From positions 372,001 through 436,000 of the forward strand of contig NZ_JBGUAY010000001.1 in NCBI RefSeq assembly GCF_041821025.1: a stretch of 64,000 nucleotides of DNA. The letters are read 5' to 3'. Below, piece after piece: positions 19,496 to 58,873 of the stretch. The stretch comes from Egicoccus sp. AB-alg6-2 (GTDB lineage Bacteria; Actinomycetota; Nitriliruptoria; Nitriliruptorales; Nitriliruptoraceae). The notes beneath the pieces were generated by a model that was given only the letters and a program-made list of their open reading frames with translations, was not told the DNA's origin and made no database searches. Position numbers and translations under genes: made by a program. The number at the start of each line of letters is the position of its first letter. Within the stretch, counting starts at the first letter, position 1.

Positions 19496-19568
19496 TGGTC
19501 AGGGGCGGGGTCGAACCGCCGACACCACGATTTTCAGTCGTGTGCTCTACCAACTGAGCTACCTGACC
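19496..19568 (-). tRNA. tRNA-Phe (anticodon GAA)
   Basis: A 73-nt cloverleaf on the minus strand. Acceptor GGTCAGG pairs with CCTGACC, the discriminator is A, and CCA is not encoded. The anticodon stem CACGA/TCGTG holds the loop CTGAAAA with anticodon GAA. The D-arm TAGCTCAGTTGG and T-loop GGTTCGA are standard. It is the last of three tRNAs in one transcript. Confidence 0.98.
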
Positions 19569-19630
19569 AGGCGGCGTCGAGGCTAGAGCCTGACGTTGCG
19601 CCCTGCATCGCCGGTTGCCCGGTGATGCAG

Positions 19631-19656
19631 CACGGCCGGTCGCGAGACCGGCCGTG
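19631..19656. other. Hairpin between tRNA-Asp and tRNA-Phe
   Basis: A perfect 11-bp stem CACGGCCGGTC (19631-19641) with complement 19646-19656 and the tetraloop GCGA, a GNRA loop. It starts 2 nt past the 3' end of tRNA-Asp. It may aid 3' processing of tRNA-Asp or act as a weak terminator inside the cluster. Confidence 0.65.
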
Positions 19657-19658
19657 AG

Positions 19659-19733
19659 CGGACCTGACGGGATTTGAACCCGCGACCTCCACCTTGACAG
19701 GGTGGCGAGCACTCCAAACTGCTCCACAGGTCC
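19659..19733 (-). tRNA. tRNA-Asp (anticodon GTC)
   Basis: A 75-nt cloverleaf on the minus strand. Acceptor GGACCTG/CAGGTCC, discriminator G as expected for Asp, anticodon stem CCACC/GGTGG with loop CTGTCAA giving GTC. T-arm GCGGGTTCAAATCCCGT. CCA is not encoded. Confidence 0.98.
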
Positions 19734-19749
19734 CTGTGGACGTTGCACG

Positions 19750-19822
19750 TGGGCCGCGCAGGACTCGAACCTGCAACCAGCGGATTAAAAGTCCGATGCT
19801 CTGCCAGTTGAGCTAGCGGCCC
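19750..19822 (-). tRNA. tRNA-Lys (anticodon TTT)
   Basis: A 73-nt cloverleaf on the minus strand and first in the transcript. Acceptor GGGCCGC/GCGGCCC, discriminator A. The anticodon loop CTTTTAA has anticodon TTT. T-arm GCAGGTTCGAGTCCTGC. Only 16 nt separate it from tRNA-Asp. Confidence 0.98.
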
Positions 19823-29828: not shown

Positions 29829-29944
29829 GACGTTCGACTCCTCGAGGGGTACGGCGGCCCGGTGGCGTGGCGTCGCCCCGGTCGAGTGGCCGACGCTACC
29901 GCCGCTACCGTCGCGCGGACGGCCGAGTCGGACAGGAGCGCCGC

Positions 29945-30457
29945 GTGGACAGCGACATCATCGAGTTCTTCGTCGAGGTCCCGATGGGATCGCGGAACAA
30001 GTACGAGTACGACTTCGAGCGCGAGACGTTCGTGCTCGACCGCATGCTGTTCACGGCCGTGCGCTATCCCGGCGACTACGGCTTCATCCCCGAGACGCTG
30101 GCCCTCGACGGCGACCACCTCGACGTGGTGTGCATCCTGGGCGAGCCGACCTTCCCCGGCTGCACGATCCCGGCCCGGGTGCTGGGCATGCTGGACATGA
30201 GCGACGACAAGGGCCCGGACGAGAAGATCCTGACCGTCGCCGACCACGACCCGCGGTGGCAGGACCTGCGCGAACTCGAGGACGTGCCCACCCACCTGCT
30301 GGACGAGATCGCCCACTTCTTCCGGATCTACAAGGACCTCGAGCAGAAGCTGGTCGAGGTCCGGGGCTGGCGCGACCGCAACACGGCCCTCACCACCATC
30401 GCCGAGGCACGCGAGCGCTACCCCGGACCGACCCAGATCGCCCGCTACCCGCTCTGA
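29945..30457 (+). CDS. ppa: Soluble inorganic pyrophosphatase (family I)
   Basis: A 170-residue cytoplasmic enzyme hydrolysing PPi to phosphate. Motifs are the substrate-binding EVPMGSRNKYEYD, the PGDYGFIP loop and the metal-binding GDHLDV with D57 and D60, plus a third Asp near 92. GTG 29945 has a GGAG Shine-Dalgarno; TACCGT at 29906-29911 is a good -10. Having this and the membrane pyrophosphatase in neighbouring genes means PPi can either be wasted or used for ion pumping. Confidence 0.95.
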   Translation: MDSDIIEFFVEVPMGSRNKYEYDFERETFVLDRMLFTAVRYPGDYGFIPETLALDGDHLDVVCILGEPTFPGCTIPARVLGMLDMSDDKGPDEKILTVADHDPRWQDLRELEDVPTHLLDEIAHFFRIYKDLEQKLVEVRGWRDRNTALTTIAEARERYPGPTQIARYPL

Positions 30458-30517
30458 GCGACGCGCTACGTTTCGCTCCGACAGCACGGCGTGGATTCCC
30501 ACGGGGAGATGGCGGCG

Positions 30518-31057
30518 ATGGCCGGACACGAACTGGACCGCATCCTCGCCGACGACTTCCTCGAGGGCCTCGAGACCTGGTCGACCGACGAGGTGCGCAC
30601 GGCCCGGGCGACGTGCGAGGCCGAGGAGGAAGCCGTCTCCTACGCGCGCCGCATCACCCAGGGCCGCCTCGACATCCTGCGCGACGAACTCGAACGTCGT
30701 GAGGCGGGCGACCGCGAGGCGACCGACGTCCTGGAGCGCCTCGCTGCCGTGCTCGCCGCCGACCGTCCGACCTCGGGTCCCGCCCAGGCGCGATCCACGC
30801 GACTGCGCGTTCCCGAGGGTGCCGACGCGTACGCCTCGCAGGTCGACCGCGTCGTCGACGACGGCTTCCTGGCGGACCTGCAGCAGCGGCCGACCGCTGA
30901 CCTGGCCGCGGCGGTCGACGGTCTGGCGGCGCACGAACAACGGCTGTCGGTCGCGCGGCGCGGCCTGTTCGCACGCATCGACCGTCTCCGGGACGAACTC
31001 GCCCGGCGGTACAAGGACGGTTCGGCGGCCGTCACCGACCTCTTCGGCGATGCGTGA
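30518..31057 (+). CDS. RsiG-like protein with two c-di-GMP-binding motifs (candidate anti-sigma factor)
   Basis: A 179-residue acidic, helical protein made of two tandem related halves. Each half has an FL-start, a short linker and a long coiled coil ending in LRDEL-RR. In each coil lies the pattern known from RsiG, E-x3-S-x2-R-x3-Q-x3-D: E37-S41-R44-Q48-D52 is complete in the first half, and E140-S144-R147-(F151)-D155 in the second, where Gln is replaced by Phe. RsiG binds a c-di-GMP dimer and then holds the sigma factor WhiG. No whiG is in the window. ATG 30518 is favoured, 9 nt after GGGGAG; ATG 30509 is possible. A -10-like TACGTT is at 30467-30472. Family inferred from motif spacing. Confidence 0.72.
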   Translation: MAGHELDRILADDFLEGLETWSTDEVRTARATCEAEEEAVSYARRITQGRLDILRDELERREAGDREATDVLERLAAVLAADRPTSGPAQARSTRLRVPEGADAYASQVDRVVDDGFLADLQQRPTADLAAAVDGLAAHEQRLSVARRGLFARIDRLRDELARRYKDGSAAVTDLFGDA

Positions 31058-32046
31058 GCGGCGCGGCGACGACCACGGCCATGACGATCGGTGAGCCGCT
31101 CGCCGAGGTCACCCGTCGTGACGAGGTGTCCGGCGCGGAACTGGTCGAGTCGATCCATCTGGGTCACGCGGTCCTGACGGGATCCGAGGGCGAGGTGCTG
31201 GCCGCGGTCGGCGAACCGCGGGCGCAGGTCTACGTGCGTTCGGCCGCGAAGCCGATCCAGGCCCGCGCCTGTCTCGACGTGATCGGTGATGCGGAGATGC
31301 CGTCGCCCCCCGAGTTGGCCGTCGCCTGGGCGTCGCATCGCGGCGAGCCGCAGCACATCGAAAGCGTCCGCCTGCTGCTGGCCCGCTCGGGCACCGACCC
31401 CGACGAGCTGACGTGCCCGCCGGCGGTCCCGCAGGCCGACGCGGCCGCGGCGCCACAGCGGATCCTGCACAACTGCTCCGGCAAGCATGCGCTGTTCGCG
31501 CTCGCCGGACGTCACCAGGGCACGCCGCGCGAGCGTCTGCTGGACCGCGACGGTCCGCTGCAGCGGGTCGTGCTCGACCGCCTGGCGCGACTGCTGGGCC
31601 CCTCAGGGGGGGTGGCCATCGACGGCTGCGGTGCGCCGGCGGTCTCCACCGAACTCGTCGGACTGGCGCGGGCGTTCGGGCGCGTCGCGGTCGACGAGGA
31701 GTTCCGCAGCATCCGCGAGGCCGGCTTCGCCCATCCCCAGCTGGTCGGGGGCGAGGGCCGGCTCGAGTCCGCGTTGCTCGGTGCCGGCGTGGTCGCGAAG
31801 GTCGGCGCCGAGGGCGTCTACGGGGTCGGTTGGGTCGGTCCCGACGGGGGTCCGCGCGGCTTCGCGGTCAAGGCCGTGGACGGCGCGACCCGGGGTGTCG
31901 CGGCGCTGACGGTGGCGCTGCTCGAGACGCTCGGCGTCGTCGGCCCCGACGTGTGGTCGCCCCCGCCGCCCCTGGGCGGTGGGGCGCCGGTCGGAACGGT
32001 GCGGCCCACCGAGGCGCTCGGACGTCTCGCTGCCGGGGCCCGCTGA
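31054..32046 (+). CDS. L-asparaginase II (Rhizobium type)
   Basis: A 330-residue enzyme of the asparaginase II family, unrelated to the E. coli type. The catalytic Ser-Lys motif is VYVRSAAKPIQ, followed by VAWASHRGEPQH and the cysteine motif LHNCSGKHALF. It hydrolyses asparagine to aspartate and ammonia. The GTG at 31054 overlaps the previous stop as GTGA; ATG 31081 is an alternative. It is probably cotranscribed with the RsiG-like gene, though no functional link is known. Confidence 0.87.
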   Translation: MSGAATTTAMTIGEPLAEVTRRDEVSGAELVESIHLGHAVLTGSEGEVLAAVGEPRAQVYVRSAAKPIQARACLDVIGDAEMPSPPELAVAWASHRGEPQHIESVRLLLARSGTDPDELTCPPAVPQADAAAAPQRILHNCSGKHALFALAGRHQGTPRERLLDRDGPLQRVVLDRLARLLGPSGGVAIDGCGAPAVSTELVGLARAFGRVAVDEEFRSIREAGFAHPQLVGGEGRLESALLGAGVVAKVGAEGVYGVGWVGPDGGPRGFAVKAVDGATRGVAALTVALLETLGVVGPDVWSPPPPLGGGAPVGTVRPTEALGRLAAGAR

Positions 32047-58778: not shown

Positions 58779-58873
58779 CGGAGGCGGACGGGAATCGAAC
58801 CCGCCAGAGGACGCAGAGCGCCCTCTCGTCGGCTTTGAAGGCCGCGGGACCCACCAGGCGTCCGGACGCCTCC
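58779..58873 (-). tRNA. selC: tRNA-Sec (selenocysteine, anticodon TCA)
   Basis: A 95-nt tRNA on the minus strand. The anticodon loop CTTCAAA gives TCA, which reads UGA. The acceptor begins GGAGGCG and pairs with CGCCTCC; the discriminator is G, as in all tRNA-Sec. The variable arm is long (AGAGGGCG paired with CGTCCTCT), the D-stem is extended (GGAC/GTCC) and the T-arm is GCGGGTTCGATTCCCGT. These are the marks of tRNA-Sec and exclude Ser, Leu and Tyr. CCA is not encoded. The selA, selB and selD genes are not in the window. Confidence 0.93.

Follow-up and report, generated by a model that had tools for sequence, protein, structure and literature searches.

The gene at positions 30,518 to 31,057 raises the question of whether an RsiG-like protein whose second c-di-GMP motif carries phenylalanine in place of glutamine can still act as a c-di-GMP-controlled anti-sigma factor and, if so, on which sigma factor and which genes. 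Here, we examined the gene in its window (the whole stretch of 64,000 nucleotides that was analyzed), in the rest of the host genome, and among related genomes. The original prediction, made from the letters alone, had described the product as RsiG-like, a candidate c-di-GMP-controlled anti-sigma factor formed by tandem duplication. The Pfam RsiG family (PF22802) matched in two stretches of the protein (8.5e-26; 89.9 bits versus a cut-off of 27), and a sequence search of the PDB aligned it over nearly its full length with Streptomyces venezuelae RsiG (6pfj; 3.8e-19), while the Rubrobacter RsiG proteins matched over one half (E about 5e-6). NCBIfam returned no match for the protein. In an AlphaFold2 model built from a two-sequence alignment (mean pLDDT 82), the protein is predicted to form an antiparallel coiled coil with one motif on each helix. 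A Foldseek search of the PDB with this model gave E values of ≤0.001 for four chains only, all of them RsiG (for S. venezuelae RsiG, 1.8e-5 with TM 0.57 to 0.66); superposition on RsiG chains (TM 0.56 to 0.66; rmsd about 7.5) supports the general fold but not the fine geometry. The duplication is borne out by a two-sequence comparison of residues 5 to 71 with the second half (38% identity over 68 columns; E of 1e-11). Since Pfam family, solved relative, and predicted fold all agree with the original identification, we take the protein to be a genuine RsiG family member, as judged from sequence and model (Table 1).

TABLE 1 Features of the rsiG locus (window coordinates)
Feature	Position	Strand	Basis or comment
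Inorganic pyrophosphatase, 5' neighbor of rsiG	29867..30457	+	PF00719, 4.9e-54
GGAG, likely ribosome-binding site	30505..30508	+	9 bases 5' of ATG 30518; direct reading of sequence
rsiG, predicted twin-motif RsiG anti-sigma factor, 179 aa	30518..31057	+	ATG 30518; TGA ends 31057
First long helix (residues 23-64), predicted antiparallel coiled coil	30584..30709	+	AlphaFold2; block mean pLDDT 86-94
Motif 1, E37-S41-R44-Q48-D52, complete c-di-GMP motif	30626..30673	+	Class alignment: position 4 Q or H, one L
Second long helix (residues 126-176), predicted antiparallel coiled coil	30893..31045	+	AlphaFold2; repeat of helix 1
Motif 2, E140-S144-R147-F151-D155	30935..30982	+	Class alignment: E 51/52; S, R, D 52/52
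F151 codon, altered predicted stacking position	30968..30970	+	Class alignment of 52 rows
Asparaginase II family protein, 3' neighbor of rsiG	31054..32046	+	PF06089, 4.7e-69; GTG overlaps rsiG stop

The host genome has this one rsiG gene and no second. The pyrophosphatase gene upstream of it probably starts at GTG 29945. Elsewhere in the window, three tRNA genes are clustered on the minus strand (19496 to 19822), and a selenocysteine tRNA, also on the minus strand (58780 to 58873; RF01852, 63.3 bits), suggests that the host uses selenocysteine.

Both motifs read as originally described: the pattern E-x3-S-x2-R-x3-[QH]-x3-D that marks RsiG proteins is complete in motif 1, and motif 2 has four of its five residues, with F151 replacing glutamine. 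When the residues of the protein were shuffled 200,000 times, the full motif arose in 0.05% of the sequences and the E-S-R-D spacing in 1%; the observed pair never did. In the solved RsiG structure the glutamines stack on guanine, histidine is accepted in the same role, and the surveyed twin-motif set keeps glutamine at that place in its second motif (PMC8325347). With F151 in place of Q or H there, the window protein is an RsiG variant outside the canonical twin-motif subgroup.

To place this variant, we turned to the host class, in which RsiG-like genes were found in 51 of 66 genomes, and aligned 52 rows (50 class loci, the window, and L090, which is the same genus member as L071). The fourth residue of motif 2 is F in 25 rows, L in 21, M in 2, I in 2, Q in 1, and P in 1 and is thus hydrophobic in 50 of 52. 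The row with P (L089, genome G029) is a remnant that lacks motif 1, from a genome without WhiG. This remnant adjoins an asparaginase II gene, and its genome also lacks PilM. A second motif that no longer functions, leaving either c-di-GMP binding through one motif (a weaker or half-loaded sensor) or a c-di-GMP-independent anti-sigma factor, would fit the loss of the published glutamine in the window and in nearly the whole class. Yet E, S, R, and D of motif 2, the residues that contact base and ribose, are nearly invariant over the 52 rows, and a dead site would not keep them so. Moreover, an aromatic residue (F or Y) arose at the same place in another lineage (L134 to L136 and L140), and the host WhiG retains its c-di-GMP contacts (see below). 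We consider a dead second motif unlikely. Because position 4 is hydrophobic class-wide while the other four residues hardly vary, the site appears re-specialized rather than decaying, and the word "degenerate" in the original prediction does not fit it. The phenylalanine that replaces the stacking glutamine most likely stacks or packs on the same guanine base, leaving the site altered and not lost; leucine may pack there too, though less clearly.

In a quick maximum-likelihood tree of RsiG proteins, computed with position 4 masked, host-class proteins cluster together with few exceptions. Within it, the class rows with F fall into a single branch (23 rows; SH-aLRT 97), and the class rows outside this branch carry L, I, or M, plus one Q. 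Every single-motif protein sampled across the phylum carries Q or H at position 4, as do nearly all first motifs, so the change to a hydrophobic residue most likely followed the duplication, affected the second copy alone, and was then kept. Several sampled proteins depart from the pattern in other ways. L135, L136, and L140 are twin-motif proteins in which D replaces E in motif 1 and motif 2 carries F or Y, and motif 1 of L139 carries R at its first and E at its last position. L146 (G165, family f45) has H at position 4 of both motifs; other sampled members of that family have a single motif, and L146 is possibly an independent duplication.

The original prediction had also held that the protein bears on how the switch evolved, coming from a lineage apparently outside the two (Streptomyces and Rubrobacter) from which RsiG was said to be known. 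That range was too narrow, given the 130 twin-motif homologs that PMC8325347 reports across Actinobacteria, Acidimicrobiales included; the host class is not named in its main text, although the supplementary table may list members. The solved RsiG structures come from groups other than the host class, which would leave room for an intermediate between single-motif and twin-motif forms or for horizontal acquisition. However, the second-motif F or L looks derived against the Q or H of the single-motif proteins, which argues against an intermediate. Against transfer, the grouping of the class proteins in the tree and the rsiG-asparaginase II adjacency, which a neighbor search extended to Streptomyces-like loci, point to vertical descent. 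Both forms of this scenario are extremely improbable in our judgment. The window protein thus resembles S. venezuelae RsiG (6pfj and 6pfv) in length, in its twin motifs on two long helices, in fold, in having a WhiG partner (here a predicted one), and in its asparaginase II neighbor (as found in Streptomyces-like loci), but it differs in that the fourth residue of its second motif is F rather than Q. The single-motif RsiG of Rubrobacter radiotolerans (7lq2 to 7lq4) is homologous in motif and helix; in contrast, it is half as long and forms a homodimer with two identical sites carrying Q.

The original prediction proposed a search of the genome for a WhiG-type sigma factor, and one is present. 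Among six proteins with sigma-70 region 3 in the host genome, P0002 (G000:C3:71234-72016, minus strand) is the WhiG ortholog, matching S. venezuelae WhiG at 5.9e-93 versus 3.4e-47 for the best FliA. It lies near rpsB, tsf, pyrH, frr, and dprA-like genes (gene names read from translations). K57, G61, and R62 of WhiG touch c-di-GMP (PMC8325347), and K40, G44, and R45 of P0002 occupy these positions. The same triple was found in all 15 WhiG proteins compared and in none of seven FliA-like sigmas. The host genome also encodes 24 GGDEF proteins. In genomes at least 85% complete, RsiG and WhiG were both present in 31 and both absent from 8, with one genome having RsiG only and one WhiG only (Fisher, 8e-7, with genomes treated as independent of kinship). 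The single RsiG-only genome is that of the L089 remnant, and the single WhiG-only genome is a fragmented assembly. RsiG and WhiG are therefore lost together, and these losses are spread over several genera; the pattern lends indirect support to the predicted inhibition of WhiG by c-di-GMP-loaded RsiG.

We next asked which genes the pair might control. For genomes at least 85% complete and in at most 220 contigs, WhiG and PilM were both present in 20 and both absent from 7, without exception; every WhiG genome at least 85% complete that lacks PilM is split into at least 240 contigs. Flagella fit more poorly in the same genomes (14 with both, 6 with WhiG only, 0 with flagella only, and 7 with neither). 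Promoter rates were computed over about 245 kb of stretches from the host's own genome. The textbook promoter TAAA-N14-16-GCCGATAA had no exact match, and allowing at most two mismatches in TAAA-N15-GCCGATAA gave no genome-wide enrichment (4 matches versus 9 in the control). A relaxed pattern derived from pilA leaders, T[AC]AAG-N14-16-[GA]CCGA, occurred 4 times in the 20 kb of the host pilus locus (L168) versus once in 226 kb of other host sequence (Fisher, 2e-4). These four matches precede a roadblock/LC7 gene, pilA, pilM, and a minor pilin gene; since the pattern was drawn from pilA leaders, the pilA matches are not independent, but those at other pilus operons are. In the pilus regions of relatives, 44 matches were found versus 2.75 in shuffles, of which a few fall inside coding sequence in an aroB-like region. 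WhiG promoters also lie in the pilus cluster of Rubrobacter (PMC8325347), a further likeness to the host. On these sequence-level grounds, the RsiG-WhiG switch most likely controls type IV pili.

The host has, however, a second candidate partner in a separate FliA-like sigma that adjoins flgK, flgL, and chemotaxis genes. The promoters recognized by FliA and by WhiG are expected to be alike, and the switch might act on this sigma and on flagella rather than on pili. Against this, the host FliA-like sigma and six relatives are without all three c-di-GMP contact residues, flagella are absent from 6 of 20 well-assembled WhiG genomes where pili are absent from none, and the relaxed promoter pattern was not seen in the 40-kb flagellar region. 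Three genomes (G002, G010, and G021) with two sigma matches each and no FliA-like sigma listed still have the pilA promoter, which favors WhiG as its reader. We judge FliA to be a very improbable partner; as a sigma factor, the host FliA-like protein could nonetheless share the pilus promoters with WhiG.

Alignment of pilA leaders revealed a conserved block, which Rfam identified in 14 relatives as c-di-GMP-I (RF01051) or c-di-GMP-I-GGC (RF03167) at or above the gathering score. The corresponding host candidate (G000:C5:85426-85518, minus strand; L168:7427-7519) scored 32.6 bits versus a gathering score of 35 and lies directly 3' of a TCAAG-N15-GCCGATGA promoter match. Across the host and these 14 relatives, 14 of 15 pilA riboswitches have a WhiG/FliA-type match with at most three mismatches upstream, versus 6% of shuffles, and the distance from match to aptamer is nearly always 21 to 30 bases. 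The arrangement persists in G002, G010, and G021, the pilA promoter being present in L188 and L193 and, with three mismatches, in L191. When the pilA leader was folded, no switching structure stood out clearly (z of 0.03). Unlike a c-di-GMP-I riboswitch by itself, the aptamer here stands behind a WhiG/FliA-type promoter, which would put two c-di-GMP sensors in series. This also differs from what is described for Rubrobacter, for which PMC8325347 mentions no riboswitch. Our literature search found no report joining WhiG promoters, riboswitch, and pili.

The host pilus locus also encodes two motor ATPases with MshEN domains (L168:8863-12169, minus strand). MshEN domains bind c-di-GMP in other bacteria, and these motors are a possible third place at which the messenger could act on the pilus.

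We consider it likely that the window encodes an RsiG with an altered but functional second motif that holds WhiG at high c-di-GMP and thereby shuts the pilus genes. In the mechanism that we propose, the two long helices of the monomer would form an antiparallel coiled coil, and an intercalated c-di-GMP dimer would be gripped at either end by the motif of one helix, with F151 most likely stacking or packing on guanine at the site of the missing glutamine. By homology, we infer that RsiG loaded at high c-di-GMP would sequester WhiG and that a fall in c-di-GMP would free it. With a candidate c-di-GMP-I riboswitch at the start of the pilin transcript, c-di-GMP would act on pilin twice, at transcription initiation and again in the leader. 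We lean slightly toward a wider reading, in which the pilin is under c-di-GMP twice in series (first through the RsiG-governed WhiG promoter and then through the riboswitch), the MshEN motors add to this control, the motif 2 residue tunes the two sites of RsiG differently, and pilus control, which Rubrobacter shares, goes back further than sporulation as an output of the switch.

The RsiG family with its 130 twin-motif homologs and the control of pili in Rubrobacter were already known (PMC8325347). As far as the papers show, two things are new: the class-wide asymmetric motif 2 and the coupling, at pilA, of a c-di-GMP riboswitch to WhiG-type promoters. According to PMC8325347, c-di-GMP is known to target no sigma/anti-sigma complex other than RsiG-WhiG, and a conserved, class-wide change at one of its sites shows which contacts such a switch can vary; the class variants are natural material for binding studies. 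A riboswitch behind the same promoter would be unusual, one messenger being read twice on one gene. The S. venezuelae switch governs sporulation, in contrast to the type IV pili predicted here. If pili are the output, as in Rubrobacter, the role of the switch before sporulation becomes directly testable.
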